Assembly: GCF_012933385.1 (NCBI RefSeq)
Contig: NZ_JABBPN010000001.1
Location: forward strand, 310,001 to 374,000
Length of the DNA: 64,000 nucleotides
Origin: Paenibacillus lemnae
Lineage (GTDB): Bacteria > Bacillota > Bacilli > Paenibacillales > Paenibacillaceae
Direction: 5' to 3'
Of this stretch, positions 50,403 through 59,659 are shown in pieces. Under the pieces are notes generated by a model. It did not search any database and had not been told where the DNA came from. It worked only from the letters and a program-made list of their open reading frames with translations. Positions within the stretch are counted from its first letter, which is position 1; every line of letters starts with the position of its first letter. The translations under genes were made by a program, and so were the position numbers.

Positions 50403-50948
50403 ATGACTGATTCTGATAAGGAGCCGTCCTTTAACTGCGGTGGAGCAAGCGATGCGTCTTCCCCGGAAGATGTGCTTGGTGAGGCTTCACGCCGGCTTAT
50501 GAGAACCTTCGGGCTGTTTCGCAAAAGGCAGTGGGAGCAGATGAGCATCTCCGGTTTCACTGCCGGGGAGATCAAGGTGCTGATGGCTTTAAAATTCCAT
50601 CCGCCTGCTGAAGGAACCGACGGTTTGAAGGTGTCCGAGATCAGCGGCCATATGGGTGTAACGTCTCCTACGATCACCCAGTTTATAAACGGCCTGGAAA
50701 GCCGGGATCTGGTGACACGCTTTATGGACGCCAATGACCGGAGAGCGGTCAGAGTGAAGCTGACAGCGCAAGGACATCACATTGCGGACAAGGCGCATGA
50801 AGCGTTTAATGTCCATTTCAAAGGTTTGGTAGAGTACTTGGGAGAAGAGGAGAGCATGGAGCTCGCCCGTCTACTCACAAAGGTGTACACCTATCTGATC
50901 GAGCATGAAATTGATCTCAATCCGGCAGATGTGAAAGGAGAGTCGTAA
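50403..50948 (+). CDS. MarR-family regulator
   Basis: A 181-residue winged-helix protein with an unusually long N-terminal extension (about 35 residues, acidic). Core: MALKFHPPAEGTDGLKVSEI, MGVTSPTITQFINGLESRDLV and the wing DANDRRAVRVKLTAQG. ATGAGGTGG precedes the ATG. The ABC exporter gene starts 3 bases after its stop, so it almost certainly represses this operon until a drug-like ligand binds. Confidence 0.9.
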   Translation: MTDSDKEPSFNCGGASDASSPEDVLGEASRRLMRTFGLFRKRQWEQMSISGFTAGEIKVLMALKFHPPAEGTDGLKVSEISGHMGVTSPTITQFINGLESRDLVTRFMDANDRRAVRVKLTAQGHHIADKAHEAFNVHFKGLVEYLGEEESMELARLLTKVYTYLIEHEIDLNPADVKGES

Positions 50949-50951
50949 AAC

Positions 50952-52679
50952 ATGTTGAAGTTGTTTCGGTATATTAAGCCATATCGTGGAGCTGTGCTGC
51001 TGGTGCTAATATTTACGTTCCTTCAGACACTGTCCGAGCTGTTTCTGCCTACGCTGATGGCGGGCATTGTGGATGACGGGGTATCCCAGGGCAATATTCC
51101 ACTCATCTGGCGCATCGGAGGCATCATGGTTGCGGTTGCTGCTGGCGGTGTGATCTGCTCCATCGTGGCAAGCTATATGGCGGCGAAATCGGCCACGGGA
51201 CTCGGACGGATTTTGCGGCAAAAGGTGTTCTCCCATGTGGAAAAGTTCTCGCTGCAGGAGTTTGACCGGATCGGCACGGCGTCGCTCATTACGCGTACGA
51301 CCAATGACATTACGCAGGTGCAGCAGGTGACGATTATGATTCTGCGCATGCTGGTGCTGGCACCGCTCATGTGTATCGGGGGGATCCTGATGGCAGTTAC
51401 CCGCGATCCCGGCCTGGCCACCGTGCTGCTTGTGGTCATTCCCGTGCTGGCACTGGCGATCTTTCTGATTGCATATAAAGGTATTCCGCTGTTCAAGGTC
51501 ATTCAGACGAAAATTGATACGTTGAGCCGCGTGACACGCGAAGGCTTGACGGGTATGCGGGTTATCCGTTCATTCAACCGGACGACCTATGAAGAAAGCC
51601 GCTTCCAGGAAGCGAATGAGGATCTGACGCAGACTTCTATACGGGTTAACCAGATCATGGGTGCGATGATGCCGGTCATGATGCTGGTCATGAACCTGGC
51701 GACGATTGCGATTGTATGGTTTGGAGGAGACCGGATTCAAAATGGTCATATCCAGGTGGGCGATCTGATGGCATTTTTGCAGTATGCGATGATGATTATG
51801 TTCTCCCTGATCATGCTGTCCGTCATGTTCGTGATGATTCCGCGGGCGCAGGCCTCGGCAGTGCGGATTAACGAAGTGCTTCAGATGAAGCCGGACATCG
51901 TGGATCCTGATCAGACTGGCAGAGCTGTGCACGGAAAAGGTCATGTGGTGTTTGATGATGTGACGTTCTACTATCCGGGTGCGGAAGAGCCTGCGTTGAC
52001 GGAGATTTCTTTTGAAGCGGGCCCGGGTGAAGTGACGGCCGTCATCGGAGGCACAGGATCCGGTAAGTCCACATTGATCAGTCTGATTCCCCGTTTTTAT
52101 GATGTGACTTCGGGAAACGTAAAAATTGACGGGCTGGATATCCGGGAAATGAGCCAGGAGGACCTGAGATCCAAAATCGGCTTTGTTCCGCAGCAAGCAC
52201 TGCTCTTTACCGGCAGCATTGCGGACAATATCCGCTATGGCAAAGAAGATGCGACGGATGAAGAAATCCGGCATGCTGCTGTCGTGGCGCAGGCGGATGA
52301 ATTTATATCCGGGATGGAGGGCGGTTATGAAGCGCCAATATCCCAAGGTGGGGGCAACGTGTCAGGCGGCCAGAAGCAGCGGCTCTCCATTGCGCGGGCT
52401 CTTGTCCGCAGGCCGGAAGTCTATGTGTTTGATGACAGCTTCTCGGCGCTGGATTTCAAGACCGATGCGAAGCTGGGTGCCGCGCTGAAAAGTGAAACGA
52501 CCGCCTCCACGGTTCTGATCGTGGCCCAGCGGGTCAGCACAGTCATGGATGCAGACCGCATCATCGTGCTGGAAGAAGGCAAGGTGGCAGGAATTGGCAG
52601 CCATGCCGAACTGATGGAAAGCTGCAGTGTCTACCAAGAGATTGTGTCTTCCCAGCTGTCAGAGGAGGAGATCGCATGA
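50952..52679 (+). CDS. heterodimeric ABC exporter, degenerate-site subunit (BmrC-like)
   Basis: A 575-residue half-transporter: six membrane helices (to about 310), then the ATPase domain with Walker A GGTGSGKST and a good signature VSGGQ. Its own Walker B ends Asp494-Asp495 instead of Asp-Glu, and the switch His is replaced by Gln526 (VAQR). Such changes mark the non-hydrolysing site of heterodimeric exporters such as BmrCD and TM287/288. Its stop overlaps the partner start (ATGA). Confidence 0.9.
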   Translation: MLKLFRYIKPYRGAVLLVLIFTFLQTLSELFLPTLMAGIVDDGVSQGNIPLIWRIGGIMVAVAAGGVICSIVASYMAAKSATGLGRILRQKVFSHVEKFSLQEFDRIGTASLITRTTNDITQVQQVTIMILRMLVLAPLMCIGGILMAVTRDPGLATVLLVVIPVLALAIFLIAYKGIPLFKVIQTKIDTLSRVTREGLTGMRVIRSFNRTTYEESRFQEANEDLTQTSIRVNQIMGAMMPVMMLVMNLATIAIVWFGGDRIQNGHIQVGDLMAFLQYAMMIMFSLIMLSVMFVMIPRAQASAVRINEVLQMKPDIVDPDQTGRAVHGKGHVVFDDVTFYYPGAEEPALTEISFEAGPGEVTAVIGGTGSGKSTLISLIPRFYDVTSGNVKIDGLDIREMSQEDLRSKIGFVPQQALLFTGSIADNIRYGKEDATDEEIRHAAVVAQADEFISGMEGGYEAPISQGGGNVSGGQKQRLSIARALVRRPEVYVFDDSFSALDFKTDAKLGAALKSETTASTVLIVAQRVSTVMDADRIIVLEEGKVAGIGSHAELMESCSVYQEIVSSQLSEEEIA

Positions 52680-54565
52680 GTGAGCAGCAACGTGGCGGCG
52701 GACACCGCGGCGGAGGCGGAGGCCATCCTCGTGGTGGTCCCTTCGGCGGAGGACCGCATGGACCAGGTATGCCAGTCGAGAAACCGAAAGATTTTAAAGG
52801 CACCTTCCGGCGTTTAGCCGGTTATCTCAAGCCGCACCGGGGCAGACTGCTGCTGGTGCTGGCTGCGGCACTGCTGAGTACAATATTCGGAATTGTCAGT
52901 CCGAAAATTCTCGGAGATGCTACCGACGTATTATACGATGGATGGAGGAATATGCAGAGAACTCCTGGAGCTAGCATTGATTTTGCGGCCCTTCAGGAAA
53001 TCCTGCTCTGGCTGGGCGGACTGTACCTGTTGAGCTCGGTATTTGGCTATGTCCAGCAGTATGTGATGGCCAGCGTAGCCCAGCGGACGGTTTACGATCT
53101 GCGTGAAGAGGTGGACCAGAAGTTGAGCCGGCTGCCGCTGAAATATTTTGATGCACGTTCGCATGGCGAAACGCTGAGCCGGGTTACGAATGATATGGAC
53201 AACATCAGCAGCACGCTTCAGCAGAGCTTGACCCAGATGATTACGTCTGTTGTAACGCTGCTCGGGGTTATTGTCATGATGCTGTGGATCAGCCCGCTGA
53301 TGACCCTGGTGGTCATCCTCACGCTGCCTTTAAGCGTGATTGTAACCATCGGAGTCGCCAAGGGTTCCCAGAAGCAGTTTGCAGATCAGCAAAAATATCT
53401 GGGACAGCTGAACGGGCACGTCGAGGAAATGTATACTGGCCACCGTGTCGTGAAGGCGTTCGGCCGCGAGCAGCAGAGTATCGCGCAATTCGATGAGGTG
53501 AACAACAAGCTGTATGAAGCGGGCTGGCGCGCCCAGTTTATCTCCGGGGTTATTATGCCGCTGATGATGTTTATCGGAAATATCGGGTATGTGATCGTCA
53601 GCATTATGGGGGGTATTTTGGTAACACAGAACTCCATTTCGGTAGGTGAAATCCTGGCGTTTATCCAGTACTCGCGTCAATTTACCCAGCCGATCACACA
53701 GCTGGCTAACATTGCGAACGTCATTCAATCGACCATTGCTTCGGCGGAACGCGTGTTTGAGGTGCTGGACGCAGAGGAAGAGATTCCGGAAGCCTCGTCG
53801 CCCCGGGATCTCAAGCAGGCACAGGGCAGTGTGGTGTTTGACCAGGTGGCCTTCGGATACAAGCCGGATCAGCGCTTGATTGATGATTTGAATGTGGATG
53901 TGAAGCCGGGTCAAATGGTTGCGATTGTAGGACCAACCGGTGCCGGAAAAACAACGCTGGTCAACCTGCTCATGCGGTTTTATGAGCTGGATGATGGGCA
54001 GATCCGTATCGATGGCGTGAATATCGCCGATATGAAGCGCAGCGAGCTGCGCGGCCTGTTCGGCATGGTGCTGCAGGATACGTGGTTGTTTAACGGGACG
54101 ATCCGGGACAATATCGGTTACGGCAGGGAAGGGGTGTCTGAGGAGGAGATCGTACAGGCAGCTGAAGCTGCGCATGCCGATCATTTCATTCGGACGCTGC
54201 CGAATGGGTATGACACGGTACTGAATGAAGAAGCGTCGAACATTTCCCAGGGACAGAAGCAGCTGCTGACCATTGCCCGGGCTATTTTGTCCGATCCTGC
54301 CATTCTGATTCTGGATGAGGCGACTAGCAGTGTGGATACACGTACCGAGCTCTATATCCAAAAAGCCATGAACCGCCTGATGCAGGACCGAACGAGCTTT
54401 GTCATCGCCCACCGTCTTTCCACCATCCGGAATGCGGATTTAATTCTGGTCATGAACAAGGGCCGCATTGTGGAGCAGGGCACACATGATGAACTGCTTG
54501 CGCAGGACGGTTTTTACGCTGATTTGTACAACAGCCAGTTCAGCGAGGAACAGCAGGCGGTTTAA
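52676..54565 (+). CDS. heterodimeric ABC exporter, catalytic subunit (BmrD-like)
   Basis: A 629-residue half-transporter. It begins with a Gly/His/Pro-rich stretch of about 35 residues, not seen in the partner, followed by six membrane helices and an ATPase domain with Walker A GPTGAGKTT, Walker B LILDEA (Glu548) and switch His579, all canonical. Its signature is altered to ISQGQ (Gln525). Together with the upstream subunit this gives one working and one degenerate ATP site. Likely role: multidrug or lipid export under MarR control. Confidence 0.9.
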   Translation: MSEQQRGGGHRGGGGGHPRGGPFGGGPHGPGMPVEKPKDFKGTFRRLAGYLKPHRGRLLLVLAAALLSTIFGIVSPKILGDATDVLYDGWRNMQRTPGASIDFAALQEILLWLGGLYLLSSVFGYVQQYVMASVAQRTVYDLREEVDQKLSRLPLKYFDARSHGETLSRVTNDMDNISSTLQQSLTQMITSVVTLLGVIVMMLWISPLMTLVVILTLPLSVIVTIGVAKGSQKQFADQQKYLGQLNGHVEEMYTGHRVVKAFGREQQSIAQFDEVNNKLYEAGWRAQFISGVIMPLMMFIGNIGYVIVSIMGGILVTQNSISVGEILAFIQYSRQFTQPITQLANIANVIQSTIASAERVFEVLDAEEEIPEASSPRDLKQAQGSVVFDQVAFGYKPDQRLIDDLNVDVKPGQMVAIVGPTGAGKTTLVNLLMRFYELDDGQIRIDGVNIADMKRSELRGLFGMVLQDTWLFNGTIRDNIGYGREGVSEEEIVQAAEAAHADHFIRTLPNGYDTVLNEEASNISQGQKQLLTIARAILSDPAILILDEATSSVDTRTELYIQKAMNRLMQDRTSFVIAHRLSTIRNADLILVMNKGRIVEQGTHDELLAQDGFYADLYNSQFSEEQQAV

Positions 54566-54650: not shown

Positions 54651-55379
54651 TTAAGAGGGCTGCATAACCAAGTCGGAAAAGGCGCCGTACAGACCGCCGC
54701 TGTAGCGGTACTTTTCCTTCAAGGGCAATACGGCTCCTTGATACCGGACATGACCTGTATCCAGAAAAATAACCTCGTCAGCAGCTTGTTCGGCAACATC
54801 CAGCTGATGTGTCGAGAAGATGACGGCCTGACCTGCCTGAGCACACTGCTGCACCAGAGTGACAAACGATCGCATCCAGTACGGATCCAGGCCATTGGTA
54901 GGCTCATCCAGAATGAGCAGCGGAGGCGCTGCAAGGAGGGCTTGGGCGAACAGCAGGCGCTGGCGCATACCTTTTGAGAAGGCGGTCAGCTTCTTGCTTC
55001 TTACGGCATCAAGTCCCACAAGCTCCAGCAGCTCCTTTACGCGCTGCTTAGAAACATTACGCAGTGAAGCGTAGAACATGATGGTTTCCTGAGCAGTCAG
55101 CGCATCACCGAAGTGAAAATCATCTGGCATATAACCGATACCATCCGCACATTTCTTCCGATGCTGCTTCCAGTTCAGGCCTTGAATTGTTAGCTCACCG
55201 CTGCTTGGACGGATGATGCCGGCCGTGATTCGGAGCAGTGTGCTTTTTCCTGCGCCGTTACCTCCGCACAGAGCCAGAACCTTACCGGGCTGCAGGGAGA
55301 AGCTTAGCGGCTGAAGAAGGGTTTGCGATTTGACGATTTTGGACACTTCTCTTACTTGGAGCAGCATAGAATTAGGCAT
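54651..55379 (-). CDS. nosF: ABC ATPase, NosF-like
   Basis: A 242-residue ATPase: Walker A GGNGAGKST, a lid region with GYMPDDFHFGDALTAQE, signature FSKGMRQR, Walker B LLILDEPTNGLDP and His in STHQL. The lid and gene order fit NosF, the ATPase that works with NosY and NosD in copper-site maturation of nitrous oxide reductase. AAAGGAGGAG precedes the ATG, which overlaps the permease end by 8 bases. Last gene of the minus-strand run. Confidence 0.83.
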   Translation of the reverse strand: MPNSMLLQVREVSKIVKSQTLLQPLSFSLQPGKVLALCGGNGAGKSTLLRITAGIIRPSSGELTIQGLNWKQHRKKCADGIGYMPDDFHFGDALTAQETIMFYASLRNVSKQRVKELLELVGLDAVRSKKLTAFSKGMRQRLLFAQALLAAPPLLILDEPTNGLDPYWMRSFVTLVQQCAQAGQAVIFSTHQLDVAEQAADEVIFLDTGHVRYQGAVLPLKEKYRYSGGLYGAFSDLVMQPS

Positions 55380-56226
55380 GGGTTCTCCTCCTTTGCAGTA
55401 TCCATGAAGCTGCGGTCAACAGCAGTACAATCCAAAGCAAGCCTGCAGCCAGGAACGTAAGCGTGCCTTCCGGCTGATGCATCCAGTTCACCCAGCGGTA
55501 ATATTCAGGTCCCAGCACAGAGCCGCCACCAAGCTTGATGACCAGAAAGAGTCTGGACAGCTCTGCGGGATTCAGAAAGACCATGATCATAAGCATAGGC
55601 TTGATCAATGGGTAGGCTAGTACACCCAGAAGAGCAATGAGAAGTGTAGGCCAGCCCAGAACGAGAAAGAACCAGACCGAGACGGAAACCGTCAGCGCCT
55701 GCCATCGGTTCCTGCACAACACACCGATGAGCAGAGATAGTGCAAGAAAGAACAGTACCAGACAGCAAGAGAATACGATAAACAGACTGTATGTTTTCCA
55801 GGTGTAAGATTGTGACGTAAAGGCACTGATCAGTCCGGATATACCAAAGCCGGCTGCAACAATAATGAGCAGTACATACAGCGTCCCGATGTATTTGCCG
55901 AGCACATATCCCGCAGCACGTATGGGGTAGGTAGACAGCAGCTGCCAGCCGCCTTCCTCCTTTTCTGCAGCGATTGAAAAAGAACCCAGCAGCAAGGTCA
56001 TCAGAGGCAGCAGATATAATATGAGGTTAATCATGGCGCTGGTCGTACCGGAGTAATCCTGAAGGCCCTGCTGCTGCTGAATGAGAAGCAGGGCAAGGCT
56101 GAACAAGATAAATAAACCCATAAATGAATAAGACCAGGGATTGCGGAATCCGAGCTTGATCTCACGTCCGGCGATCGTCTGGATCGCCCGTAAGCTCAGA
56201 AAGTCCTCACCGCTTGTATTATTCAT
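55372..56226 (-). CDS. nosY: ABC permease, NosY-like
   Basis: A 284-residue permease with about six helices, of the ABC-2 type, starting FLSLRAIQTIAGREIKLGFRNPWSY, the usual NosY opening. The ATG at 56226 overlaps the NosL end by 8 bases; longer in-frame starts lie inside nosL. It should form the membrane complex with the NosF-like ATPase and the exported NosD-like protein. Confidence 0.82.
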   Translation of the reverse strand: MNNTSGEDFLSLRAIQTIAGREIKLGFRNPWSYSFMGLFILFSLALLLIQQQQGLQDYSGTTSAMINLILYLLPLMTLLLGSFSIAAEKEEGGWQLLSTYPIRAAGYVLGKYIGTLYVLLIIVAAGFGISGLISAFTSQSYTWKTYSLFIVFSCCLVLFFLALSLLIGVLCRNRWQALTVSVSVWFFLVLGWPTLLIALLGVLAYPLIKPMLMIMVFLNPAELSRLFLVIKLGGGSVLGPEYYRWVNWMHQPEGTLTFLAAGLLWIVLLLTAASWILQRRRTHA

Positions 56227-56779
56227 GTCCCGAATTGCCGCCATGCTCATCGCTTTCTGACGTGTCATGCGCCTCGGATCCATGTCCATGCTCGCCATCA
56301 CCATGCATGTCATCCATCATATCCATTCCAGATTTCCATTCATGATTCTCAAGTTCTGCGCTGGTCATAAGCGTACCCATACCATGCTCCTGCACAAATT
56401 TGTCTGCACTTGCTTGATCTTTAAAGGAGAGAACGCCAAAAGCCATCGGAGTACGGATGTTCTCATCATAAACATAGACAGCATCTTTTAAGTGAAGCCA
56501 TTCTTTCGTGTAATAATCCCGGACAAATTTTGCACCGATGTTATCCTCGCCATGCTCTTTTGTCCACACATACATGTCACCCAGATCATCGAATTTCAAC
56601 GTTTTATAATCCTTTAGCTGCAGCTGTACGGCGTATTGGTCATCCTTGATCTGCATGTTGCAGACAACACATTTGTCCACATTTTCATCAATCGGAACGG
56701 CCGCATATTCCTCTTTACCGCAGCCGGCGGTTAATACGACAACAATACTGATCAGCATGAGCTTCAACATGGTTTTCAT
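56219..56779 (-). CDS. nosL: NosL-like copper-binding lipoprotein
   Basis: A 186-residue lipoprotein: signal ending LTAGC with lipid Cys20, then CVVCNM (Cys37, Cys40, Met42), the metal motif region of NosL proteins, which deliver Cu(I). A His/Met/Asp-rich tail (about 150-186, with DMMDDMHGDGEHGHG) adds further possible metal ligands. GGGGGAAAG precedes the ATG and the start overlaps the nosD stop by 4 bases. Confidence 0.85.
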   Translation of the reverse strand: MKTMLKLMLISIVVVLTAGCGKEEYAAVPIDENVDKCVVCNMQIKDDQYAVQLQLKDYKTLKFDDLGDMYVWTKEHGEDNIGAKFVRDYYTKEWLHLKDAVYVYDENIRTPMAFGVLSFKDQASADKFVQEHGMGTLMTSAELENHEWKSGMDMMDDMHGDGEHGHGSEAHDTSESDEHGGNSGHE

Positions 56780-58107
56780 TGTGCTTTCCCCCTGAAATTA
56801 AAAATTGAGATGAGTGTAATGCCAAGCAGTATTAACGAAGCCGGAAGCACCCCTTTATGAGCTTCGGGGCTGTTTGCATCTGCCGGCAATTCCGGCGGTT
56901 TCAGCAAGGGTGAGGCATCGGACAGGCCACGCTCCTGATCGACAGGAAACAACTGCTCCAGCAAAGGCAGCCCGGGTGAATGAAACAGGAGCTGCAGCTG
57001 CGGAGTGGACCTGGTGATCTGAAGAAAAAACGGATTGACGATATAGGGAAGGTCGCTGAGACCAGATCCGTCCAAATCCAGCACCTGTGCAGAATCCCAA
57101 TAATTTTGGTCCGCCGCATTGTCGCTGCTGTCTATAGCTTGGGCGGGTACGACGTTGGCAGAGAAGAGATTCTGGCGCAGCATATTCCCCTCAGCATTCA
57201 GCATTTGAATACCGATGAAGTTACTGCTGATTTCGTTAGAGAGAAGCTGATTATCCGAAGATTGTTGAACGAAGATGCCAACCCGATTTCCCTGAATAGA
57301 ATTCCGGGCGACATACGACGCCGATACATCATACAGCAGCAGCCCCTGTGCGTTAACGCTGCTGTTCTGCTCTTCAAACCGATTGTCTGTAATTTCTGCT
57401 TCGCGCACACTCATAATCATGGCCCCCGTCACGTTCGACATACTGCGGTTGCGACTCAGGTCCAAATTCTTAGTGAACATAAAGTGAAATCCGTAGCGTG
57501 ACCAGGATACGTCATTATCTTGTACGGTAAAGGAGTTTCCGCCTTCTACATACACACCATCCTGAAGTCGTGCTATGGAATTGCCGGTTATCGTGATGTT
57601 ACTGGAATCCAGCAGATCCAAGGCATTGCCTCTGGTAGACCCGCTTTTCTGACTGCCTACAATGGTGTTGCTGTCCAGCGTAATGTCATCTGCTTCCCGA
57701 AGATAGATACCCGCCCCATACGTCTTGATACTCAGAGAGGACAAGCTGCTTCCCGGTGAAGTGATATGTATGGCGGGAACTAAAGGGTCCCGGTGCAGTT
57801 GAAGGACGGTAAAGCCGTCAAGCTGAGTCTGACCGGCTGTCAGCGATAACGCCGGCTGAGCCGAACGATTCACGATTTTGCCATCATTTCCGAGGATCTT
57901 TAACGGCTTGTCAATGACGGCAGGCCCGCTGTAGGACCTCTGCTCCAGGATGAGGGTATCACCGGGAGCTGCTGCATCAATCAGCGGCTGAAGTGGAACA
58001 GGCTGTTCTTCTGCTGCTGCCGGAACACCGATAGGGAATAAGACAGTAATCGTTATCATGAACACAAAAAAAGCACGGAATACCGTGCCTGATCGGAGAA
58101 TATGCAT
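56776..58107 (-). CDS. nosD: NosD-like beta-helix protein
   Basis: A 443-residue exported protein: signal peptide (about 1-32), a right-handed beta-helix of repeated coils (about 60-370; many D/N-rich turns such as ITGNSIARLQDGVYVEGGN) and a C-terminal membrane helix (about 420-440). NosD proteins take copper from NosL and pass it to NosZ. AAAGGAGGCG precedes the ATG. First gene of the nosDLYF run. Confidence 0.85.
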   Translation of the reverse strand: MHILRSGTVFRAFFVFMITITVLFPIGVPAAAEEQPVPLQPLIDAAAPGDTLILEQRSYSGPAVIDKPLKILGNDGKIVNRSAQPALSLTAGQTQLDGFTVLQLHRDPLVPAIHITSPGSSLSSLSIKTYGAGIYLREADDITLDSNTIVGSQKSGSTRGNALDLLDSSNITITGNSIARLQDGVYVEGGNSFTVQDNDVSWSRYGFHFMFTKNLDLSRNRSMSNVTGAMIMSVREAEITDNRFEEQNSSVNAQGLLLYDVSASYVARNSIQGNRVGIFVQQSSDNQLLSNEISSNFIGIQMLNAEGNMLRQNLFSANVVPAQAIDSSDNAADQNYWDSAQVLDLDGSGLSDLPYIVNPFFLQITRSTPQLQLLFHSPGLPLLEQLFPVDQERGLSDASPLLKPPELPADANSPEAHKGVLPASLILLGITLISIFNFRGKAQ

Positions 58108-58183
58108 GCCACGCCTCCTTTCCTCCGGCCGGTGTTCATTTATCCTAGAGGAAGGAGAAGGGATTGGGTATAGCTCTAAAGAG

Positions 58184-58822
58184 TCATTTCACCCAGCCCT
58201 GGTCATAGGCGTATCGGGTGAGCTGGACACGATTGTCCAGATGGAGCTTTTGCATAATATTTTTGAGATGGTTCTTGACCGTGTGCTCGGATATCACAAG
58301 CTCGCAGGAAATATCCCGATTGGTTTTTCCTTTGGCCACCTGCTCCAGAATTTCCTGCTCCCGCGGGGTGAGTGGCGAGCGTTCTGGCTCCAGCGGTTTG
58401 GTGGAGAATTCCTTTAACAGCTGGACTGCCAGCTCGCGGGTGAGCGGGGCCTCGTCCAGGGCAACGGCCCTGACATACTCCAGCCACGATACGGGGGAAA
58501 TGTTCTTCAGCAAATACCCTTGAGCACCCTGTTTAATAGCTTCAAAGAGGTCTGTGATGTCATCAGAGACGGTGACCATAATAATCTTGACATACGGATA
58601 ATTATTTTTAATCTGGCGGGTTGCCTCCAGCCCGGATTGCCCGGGCATGTTAATATCCATCAGGATCACGTCAGGCATATATACGGCGGTCATTTTCAGA
58701 GCCTCCAGGCCGTCCTCAGCCTCCGCAACGACCTCAAAGCTGGGATCTTCTTTCAAAATCTCCCGAATACCTTCCCTCGCATGGGCATGATCGTCAGCAA
58801 TCAGAATGCGAATGGGCTGCAT
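58184..58822 (-). CDS. NarL/LuxR-family response regulator
   Basis: A 212-residue regulator: receiver (1-120; Asp10, Asp11, phospho-acceptor Asp56, Lys in the late strand region) and a LuxR-type helix-turn-helix (about 145-205; LTPREQEILEQVAKGKTNRD and VKNHLKNIMQKL). It sits 76 bases before nosD on the same strand and next to its kinase, so the nos-like genes are the obvious targets. Confidence 0.92.
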   Translation of the reverse strand: MQPIRILIADDHAHAREGIREILKEDPSFEVVAEAEDGLEALKMTAVYMPDVILMDINMPGQSGLEATRQIKNNYPYVKIIMVTVSDDITDLFEAIKQGAQGYLLKNISPVSWLEYVRAVALDEAPLTRELAVQLLKEFSTKPLEPERSPLTPREQEILEQVAKGKTNRDISCELVISEHTVKNHLKNIMQKLHLDNRVQLTRYAYDQGWVK

Positions 58823-58828
58823 GATGCA

Positions 58829-59659
58829 TCATCCTTTCTGTATTCTCAGAATCGTGTGTTTTTCACTGCGGGACAAGCTTAGCTTCCAGCCCAGCGCCTC
58901 GGCCCGCTCACGAATGATCCTTAGCCCGAACCGGTTAGGATCATTCAGCTGTTCCTCATCAAGACCCTGTCCATTATCTTTAATGCTTACCTGCCAGCCT
59001 CCCGGAGTCGTGCACCCTTGAACGGAGACCTGACTAGCCCCGGCGTGCTTGCTGATGTTAAGCAGTCCTTCTCGTACAGAGGAATAAAGTTCTACCTTTT
59101 CTTTGATGCTCAGTGAGGCTTCGGGAATGTTCCAATCTATGGTAACCGGAATGCCGTGCTCCTGCCCAAACTGCGATATCAAATGAAATATCGCATCCTC
59201 CCAGCCGGCAGCAGACTCTCCTTTGGGCTGTGCCCTAAGGCTGCTGATCGCTTGTCTGACATAGGCATTCAGCTCCTGAGTCACTTTGTGGAGGCCGGCA
59301 TACGCAGGAGAGGTGTTCGGCGCACACGTATCCGCCGCTTTTAATTGTTCGACCTTGACACTGATCAAAAAGAGGGATTGAGCAATGCCGTCATGCAGCT
59401 CTCTCGCCAAAGCCTCCCGTTCCTCAAGAACAGCTTTAGCTGCCTGTTCTTCCCGGAGCTGAGCCTGCAGCTGTTCCATTCTTCCAAACAATTTGAGAAG
59501 CAGCGTAATACTGACCAGGAAGACAAGCACAGGAGCAAGCCAGTTCCCCAGTTCCATCGAAATATAGGGCAGAAGATACTCATGTCGGACAAACTCCCAT
59601 ACCGCGATCGTTAATGTAGGGATAATCAGAATAAGAATTTTAATGTTTTTGTAGCTCAT
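58829..59659 (-). CDS. NarX/DegS-like sensor histidine kinase
   Basis: A 276-residue kinase: two hydrophobic segments (about 7-24 and 42-58), a short coiled linker, HisKA_3 with ARELHDGIAQSL (phospho-acceptor His89), and a HATPase domain with NISKHAGASQ, KDNGQGLDEEQ and FGLRIIRERAEALG. It lacks a large outside domain, so the signal may be membrane-borne or bind the short loop. Its gene ends 6 bases before the regulator gene. Confidence 0.9.
   Translation of the reverse strand: MSYKNIKILILIIPTLTIAVWEFVRHEYLLPYISMELGNWLAPVLVFLVSITLLLKLFGRMEQLQAQLREEQAAKAVLEEREALARELHDGIAQSLFLISVKVEQLKAADTCAPNTSPAYAGLHKVTQELNAYVRQAISSLRAQPKGESAAGWEDAIFHLISQFGQEHGIPVTIDWNIPEASLSIKEKVELYSSVREGLLNISKHAGASQVSVQGCTTPGGWQVSIKDNGQGLDEEQLNDPNRFGLRIIRERAEALGWKLSLSRSEKHTILRIQKG

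Follow-up and report, generated by a model that had tools for sequence, protein, structure and literature searches.

A NosZ-free nosDLYF operon with a putatively copper-linked two-component system in Paenibacillus: a probable copper-delivery module for a heme-copper oxidase

What could a machine for building the copper site of nitrous oxide (N2O) reductase be doing in a bacterium where no such reductase is found? The question is raised by a nosD-nosL-nosY-nosF block on the minus strand of a stretch of 64,000 nucleotides (nt) from the Paenibacillus lemnae contig NZ_JABBPN010000001.1, hereafter the window. The block occupies positions 54651-58107 and lies behind a kinase-regulator pair, so that the order of transcription is histidine kinase, response regulator, NosD, NosL, NosY, NosF. 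Research on NosDFY and NosL has treated them as factors dedicated to the CuZ site of N2O reductase (NosZ). On balance, we favour the explanation that the operon is a copper-regulated, NosZ-independent module of copper delivery, probably serving a heme-copper oxidase.

The identity of the four nos genes is the first point to settle. NosD (56776-58107; 443 amino acids, aa) is a beta-helix protein in which a signal peptide and a C-terminal membrane anchor can be read by eye. It scores 97 bits with the Pfam NosD model (cut-off 23.6) and 244 bits with the NCBIfam model NosD_copper_fam (TIGR04247), under the cut-off of 300 for the latter, and its sole PDB match at E ≤ 0.01 is a NosD, 7o0y_A (E 5e-27). 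The ABC permease NosY (55372-56226) likewise has one PDB match at E ≤ 1, NosY 7o0y_D (E 6e-15); the ABC ATPase NosF (54651-55379; 242 aa) matches 7o0y_B at E 1.6e-36, with higher scores for ABCA-type ATPases. NosL (56219-56779), a lipoprotein of 186 aa with a CxxCxM motif and a His/Met/Asp-rich tail, reaches 57.9 bits with Pfam NosL (cut-off 24). By sequence, its search against the PDB returned unrelated proteins only and no NosL, but its predicted fold matched NosL 7og7 (Foldseek E 9.5e-7, TM-score 0.73 by target length) as well as NosDFYL complexes. The structures 7o0y, 7znq and 7osf represent the NosDFY-NosL assembly machinery of Pseudomonas stutzeri. Neighbouring genes overlap by 4 nt (nosD/nosL), 8 nt (nosL/nosY, assuming that nosY starts at the likely ATG at 56226 and not at 56313, as in the list of open reading frames) and 8 nt (nosY/nosF). 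The family, PDB and fold matches thus bear out the preliminary description of this locus, made from the DNA letters, which had seen overlapping nosDLYF homologues in this order. With a beta-helix NosD, a NosL fold carrying Cu(I)-ligand residues, and NosY and NosF in one operon, the set has the make-up of a complete NosDFY-NosL copper-insertion machine; copper binding and transfer are predicted, and the NosZ-independence of its lineage, discussed below, is part of the explanation that we find somewhat probable as a whole.

The residues that would hold the metal are strongly conserved. CxxCxM occurs in all 77 NosL sequences compared, two of them NosZ-linked, and C20 (the lipid anchor), C37, C40, M42 and M112 are invariant in the 37 that were aligned. 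PMC6530538 names the Cys and Met of CxM as likely Cu(I) ligands and mentions one other Met as absolutely conserved; M112 would correspond to that second Met. The tail of NosL had initially been called unusually rich in His, Met and Asp, suggesting more metal capacity. It is not unusual: all 36 tails scored from the 41 loci of the genus consist to 41-67% of H, M, D or E, and the argument for extra capacity is weak because such a tail is common to the genus. In several lineages outside the genus, this tail is short.

Could the operon serve a NosZ encoded elsewhere, as was once suggested? Three models found no NosZ in this genome at the thresholds used, the Paenibacillus-type assembly (4.59 Mb, 51 contigs) being 91.9% complete and the models possibly less sensitive to clade III NosZ, a clade mentioned in PMC13274427. 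Because of that completeness, the test was run genus-wide, and none of 100 genomes rose over the cut-off; weak matches at E ≤ 0.001 in 33 of them all fell on model positions 439-578, the C-terminal end. As a positive control, the same model recovered NosZ in 21 of 299 Bacilli genomes, 20 as single matches of 798-911 bits and one with 816 bits summed over pieces. Such results do not support a NosZ elsewhere. Nor did the neighbours scanned (MarR, one ABC exporter, a diacylglycerol kinase, a ferritin-like protein and TetR) include a copper enzyme, in agreement with the preliminary description, which had noticed that neither nosZ nor any other copper enzyme gene adjoined the block. Of the 100 genus genomes, 41 have NosD itself, as do, at E ≤ 1e-30, 94 of the 299 Bacilli, part of these 94 matches being weak or partial; 20 of the 94 also have NosZ and 74 do not, while one NosZ-bearing genome has no NosD at this threshold.

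The arrangement and phylogeny of the genes tell two kinds of cluster apart. We read 92 NosD loci: 41 from the genus, 40 from the class Bacilli (34 from the 74 NosZ-lacking genomes and six second copies from NosZ-bearing ones) and 11 NosZ-linked loci chosen by their NosZ. The caller of open reading frames masked some genes behind frames on the opposite strand, and the genus loci were rechecked by tblastn. This comparison of gene order, which had been proposed at the outset, showed that 40 of the 41 genus loci have the whole D-L-Y-F series in this order. NosL, NosY and NosF also stand behind NosD in 39 of the 40 class loci, one of them with an extra gene separating D from L; the remaining locus is a contig of 3 kb. 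NosZ-linked loci are built as NosZ followed by NosD, NosY and NosF (NosF before NosY in one), with NosL placed between D and Y in two of the 11. The genes nosC and nosB, neighbours of the Bacilli nosZ clusters, are not in the gene list of the window when it is compared with these 11 loci. Six of the 21 NosZ-bearing genomes hold both kinds of cluster, the second copy being NosZ-free. In a quick, unrooted NosD tree of 73 of the 92 loci (23 of 41 genus, 39 of 40 class and all 11 NosZ-linked), supported by the SH-like approximate likelihood ratio test (SH-aLRT) only and warning of long branches (L143, L145, L168 and others), one branch splits the 11 NosZ-linked from the 62 NosZ-free sequences (SH-aLRT 98), and the window NosD falls within a NosZ-free set of 40 (SH-aLRT 100). 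Because the two groups separate on such a well-supported branch, the topology speaks against a recent loss of nosZ and suggests that NosZ-free NosD forms a lineage of its own.

Two further observations concern the layout of these loci. Directly after NosF, the caller of open reading frames placed a TlpA/ResA-like thioredoxin in 29 of the 41 genus loci (e.g., L075:12722-13258) and in none of the five from the window's own subgroup. Locus L060 (G011:C13:34300-54200), also from the genus, has NosD and NosL, and tblastn detected neither NosY nor NosF up to 4.5 kb away; it is possibly decaying or rearranged.

If the operon does not serve NosZ, its control may tell us what it does serve. The sensor kinase (58829-59659, minus strand; 276 aa) carries HisKA_3 and HATPase_c domains after two hydrophobic segments, found by a simple hydropathy scan, which flank a short loop; the regulator (58184-58822, minus strand; 212 aa) joins a receiver to a LuxR/GerE DNA-binding domain. 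A regulator pair does stand ahead of the cluster, as first described, but its label as NarXL-like holds as a general likeness only: the kinase scores 101 bits with NarX (cut-off 578), the regulator 168 bits with NarL (cut-off 250), and the kinase has no Pfam NarX sensor domain. Seven residues of the loop (E22, R25, H26, S34, M35, G38 and N39) do not vary among 20 aligned orthologues, and all except S34 are also constant in a further, partly overlapping set of 21; among them, E22, H26 and M35 could bind metal. The sensor part of the kinase was found in 89 of the 100 genus genomes (86 without three weak matches), including all 41 with NosD; it is missing or weakly matched in 14 of the 59 that lack NosD.

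In 15 of the 41 genus loci, no more than 7.5 kb separates the pair from nosD. Away from nosD, copper or oxidase-assembly genes adjoin it in nine of 20 genus loci: YtkA, cytochrome c, SCO and CtaG together in L196, CtaG in L202, DUF1775 in five loci (in one of these, L207, partly masked and judged by clustering), and a DsbD_2-cupredoxin protein in L199, with a homologue by clustering in L210. We extended the comparison to 80 named loci, the best 80 of 506 kinase-profile matches, from Paenibacillus, Cohnella, Oceanobacillus, Mesobacillus and others; the contigs of the named genomes, searched with the window NosD alone, gave no match. In 55 of the 80, genes for DUF1775/YcnI, CopC-CopD, SCO, YtkA, CtaG or nosDLYF stand within 2.5 kb, and in nine they stand at 2.5-6 kb, two of these having them only there. 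The models behind these labels were self-built from few sequences, and the labels are approximate (one sequence each for CopC-CopD and CopC, two each for CtaG and DsbD-cupredoxin); in the seed cluster of the YtkA model, the tested member, from L075, has no Pfam hit, while two proteins found by the model are Pfam YtkA. Overall, the kinase-regulator pair looks copper-linked, and we suppose that it may sense copper.

A shared promoter element appears to tie this pair to nosD. A dyad, ATGACTCTTTAGAGCTAT (ATRRCY-N6-RGYYAT; 58170-58187, minus strand), overlaps the stop codon of the regulator gene and is a candidate site for the regulator; 22 nt downstream stands a -10-like hexamer, TAGGAT (58142-58147, minus strand), of the presumed nosD promoter. 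One match against 0.28 expected in the window means that the weight of this dyad rests on the relatives. There, 31 of the 41 genus loci have it in the 300 nt ahead of nosD (20 of 28 after removal of near-copies), against shuffle means of 0.06 and 0.025, respectively; it is also present in 11 of the 40 class loci and in none of the 11 NosZ-linked ones. Among the ten genus loci where it is missing, four carry two dyads 450-580 nt upstream, ahead of a small gene that precedes nosD in that subgroup and is YtkA-related by our own model only; another locus has one dyad at -352. The dyad also precedes the kinase gene in 12 of 33 cases (10 of 29 without near-copies), the scan covering the 33 of 41 genes that have the start motif used, which the other eight lack. 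After 53 dyad sites upstream of nosD or the kinase gene had been cut to 34 by removing near-copies and flanks that were too short, a TANNNT hexamer was found to start 21-23 nt after the dyad in 33 of them, and at exactly 22 nt in 23; shuffles gave a mean of 3.3 and a maximum of 9. Judged by sequence, such spacing is the layout of an activator that would overlap the -35 region.

The composite of dyad and -10 hexamer is also met before other copper genes. The 80 named loci contain 58 composite sites (43 after near-copy removal), with at least one in 46 loci, and the control with reversed arms gave none. Labelled genes follow 46 of the 58: the histidine kinase 12, CopC-CopD 11, NosD, YtkA and DUF1775 five each, the response regulator three, SCO and CopC two each, and TlpA one. 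Eight of the remainder precede unlabelled genes, including by eye a cytochrome c, a CopC-CopD-like and a PepSY-like protein, and four precede no gene. The PepSY-like membrane protein, behind a composite on the minus strand of L259 (offset 6836), suggests a wider regulon. This wider copper-gene set with the composite belongs to the relatives and was not found in the genome of the window, where only the nosD dyad among 14 exact ones is composite and 12 of the other 13 lie inside open frames. The conserved kinase loop, the regulator, and the dyad with its -10 hexamer upstream of nosD are all present here, and it seems plausible that the regulator contacts the dyad and that copper alters expression. 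Two candidates were dropped on the way: a mapping of the regulon by the dyad alone, the counts of which were not above control in most genomes, and a perfect palindrome upstream of the kinase gene, ATCCTATATAGGAT, which only the window has among the upstream regions scanned.

Which protein would receive the copper? The preliminary idea of a target other than NosZ gains indirect support from the NosD lineage, the NosL ligand residues and the copper-linked control, while the target itself is our deduction. We regard a respiratory heme-copper oxidase as the likeliest one, mainly under copper scarcity, because the control system adjoins, in relatives, genes that bring copper to respiratory oxidases. 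In this genome it would be a caa3-type enzyme: the sole COX2-family match is a subunit II of that type, in which both a CuA and a heme c motif are present. Eight genus genomes have no COX2-family match, and none of them has NosD (Fisher p 0.02, uncorrected for kinship). The COX2 model, PF00116, also covers quinol oxidase subunits, and the CuA motif was looked for in the match of this genome only. In some NosD-bearing relatives, an additional SCO gene lies ~5 kb from a second and divergent COX2 match (G061:C21 at ~273-279 kb, G096:C1 at ~2457-2463 kb, G024 and G069; G070 has the pair without NosD); this arrangement was not found in the genome of the window.

Several facts weigh against our explanation. 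No oxidase gene was seen adjoining this operon. Composite sites, even with up to two mismatches allowed, are likewise absent from the SCO locus (5 kb) and the cta locus (8 kb) of the same genome. NosDLYF cannot be required for a COX2-type oxidase, since 51 of the 59 genus genomes that lack NosD have a COX2-family match. SCO occurs in all 41 NosD-bearing genus genomes, and the idea that NosDLYF replaces it was dropped on that ground. The promoter evidence has gaps as well: five of the 41 genus loci show no dyad within 1500 nt of nosD, 29 of the 40 class loci show none within 300 nt, and the same holds for the 300 nt upstream of the window's own kinase gene and of 21 of the 33 kinase genes scanned. 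Taken by itself, the dyad shows no enrichment across the genome (14 sites in this genome, 21 in its control; of eight genomes, six have fewer sites than the reversed control and two slightly more, G014 with 23 vs 21 and G084 with 28 vs 24), so that specificity depends on its combination with the -10 hexamer. Finally, our models labelled no copper gene near the kinase in 11 of the 20 loci from the genus and in 25 of the 80 named loci, and the latter were picked by their kinase, so that their promoter and neighbourhood counts are not independent of it.

Other explanations have to be weighed against the same evidence. That the machine serves the copper nitrite reductase NirK, as PMC13068155 proposes for Parageobacillus thermoglucosidasius, seems improbable to us. 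NosD does occur in three of the four genus genomes with a NirK-like protein at E ≤ 1e-50, and two of these three belong to the same subgroup as the window; however, the NirK model, which may be of limited sensitivity in Bacilli as none of its matches there reached the curated cut-off, finds nothing at E ≤ 1e-20 in this genome or in 33 of the 41 NosD-bearing genus genomes, nothing at E ≤ 1e-50 in 38 of these 41, and nothing at E ≤ 1e-30 in 63 of the 74 NosD-bearing, NosZ-lacking Bacilli. The weaker genus matches sit in frames of at least 473 aa that resemble other multicopper oxidases. A functionless or decaying leftover of a lost denitrification cluster would account for a locus such as L060, which keeps D and L only, and it is a very improbable account of the rest, given 40 complete genus loci, a separate NosD lineage, invariant metal ligands and a conserved promoter.

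Two more rivals keep copper as the substrate and change the purpose. Export or sequestration of excess copper would fit L167 and L179, from other families, where, judged by eye, a CopA-like P-type ATPase adjoins nosDLYF, in L179 together with an ArsR-type regulator; the neighbours matched by our own models are delivery and uptake genes (CopZ, CsoR and CopA were not searched systematically), and we give detoxification little credence. A general role in extracytoplasmic copper acquisition or storage, in which NosL and NosDFY would capture scarce copper and supply several chaperones or a YcnJ-type importer and no single target, is unlikely too, but it deserves to be taken more seriously. DUF1775 (YcnI) and CopC-CopD proteins, which serve copper uptake for oxidases in Bacillus subtilis (PMC13344008, PMC12362106), are frequent beside the control system, and H, M, D and E abound in NosL tails across the genus. 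Against such a role, TlpA/ResA-like proteins, SCO and YtkA in part of the loci point to the metallation of redox sites. To our knowledge, moreover, NosDFY homologues are insertion machines and not importers. PMC13068155 is consistent with this.

Returning to delivery to an oxidase, we can outline how the module might work, carrying the steps over by analogy from the NosZ machine, in part after PMC13068155. NosL, a membrane lipoprotein, would take up Cu(I) on the CxM Cys and Met, and perhaps on the second conserved Met, and dock on NosD; hydrolysis of ATP by NosFY would drive a cycle of NosD, which would pass copper to an apo-cuproprotein outside the membrane, a client other than NosZ. The adjacent kinase might sense the copper supply, or an envelope signal linked to it, via its short conserved loop, and the regulator would bind the dyad, whose centre lies ~43 nt ahead of the point where nosD transcription is presumed to begin, and activate the operon. 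Copper sensing, the contact of regulator and dyad, the direction of control and the oxidase as target are inferred parts of this outline; gene content, conserved ligand residues, separate lineage, dyad spacing, copper-gene neighbourhood and the finding of no NosZ are observations.

Should the machine load other copper sites, it would offer a further system for studying copper insertion by NosDFY, and the promoter element with the kinase makes a testable copper-limitation circuit in Paenibacillus and its relatives. A practical consequence concerns annotation: nosD/nosL could be taken as a mark of N2O reduction, and this fails in the sampled Bacilli because 74 of the 94 NosD-bearing genomes show no NosZ. 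It is tempting, though distinctly doubtful for now, to go further and suppose that a second branch of the Nos machine exists in Bacilli, commoner than the first and with no NosZ to serve: a copper-limitation regulon, equipped with a sensor kinase and promoter code of its own, that loads heme-copper oxidases. The NosZ machine would then be the specialised branch.

Some neighbourhoods deserve a separate comment. In the window, a MarR-type regulator and two ABC exporters (50403-54565) adjoin the cluster and are kept in three of the four closest relatives, probably as unrelated synteny. Elsewhere, a second, longer, stand-alone NosL-like lipoprotein (~200-245 aa) lies beside nosDLYF in L144, L148, L149, L162-L165, L169, L171, L173 and L175. 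A lipoprotein of ~330 aa, an OmpR-type regulator and a second kinase adjoin nosDLYF in L144, L154 and L158; in L144, this lipoprotein is weakly beta-propeller-like (Pfam below cut-off), and the set might be another regulatory partner or a candidate client. Locus L170 (G109:C17:49000-68000) unites CopC, SCO, YtkA, nosDLYF, a TlpA/ResA-like protein and CopC-CopD in one block, together with two genes that look like cydAB by eye, and its genome has a nosZ cluster elsewhere.

Finally, we would like to place the operon among known systems. It resembles the NosDFY-NosL system of N2O reductase in having all four components by sequence or fold, and its NosL shares the CXXCXM motif of clade II NosL (PMC6530538). 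It differs from that system in that no NosZ was found, the order is D-L-Y-F with NosL included, no nosC/nosB was seen, and the NosD lineage, two-component system and promoter element are its own. The kinase and regulator share with NarX/NarL the architecture of a HisKA_3 kinase and a LuxR-type regulator, and depart from it in scoring under both cut-offs, in having no Pfam sensor domain and in their copper-gene neighbourhood. Homologues of the YcnI-YcnJ-CtaK(YtkA)-SCO route, which brings copper to oxidases in Bacillus subtilis (PMC13344008), adjoin the orthologous two-component system, some with the same promoter element; unlike the B. subtilis ycn operon with its repressor YcnK (PMC8424229), we find here a kinase-regulator pair and NosDLYF. 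Clusters of nosD, nosL, nosY and nosF without nosZ were described in Bacillus azotoformans in 2012 (PMC3475470, with D, L and Y only listed for one cluster) and in Parageobacillus thermoglucosidasius in 2026, with NirK suggested as an alternative copper recipient (PMC13068155). Our search of the literature, mostly without subscription papers and preprints, found no earlier report of this two-component system, its promoter or their link to nosDLYF. NosZ-free clusters are already known, and what the present locus adds to those of B. azotoformans and Parageobacillus thermoglucosidasius is a separate lineage, found here without NirK, a linked and apparently copper-related two-component system and a shared promoter element.

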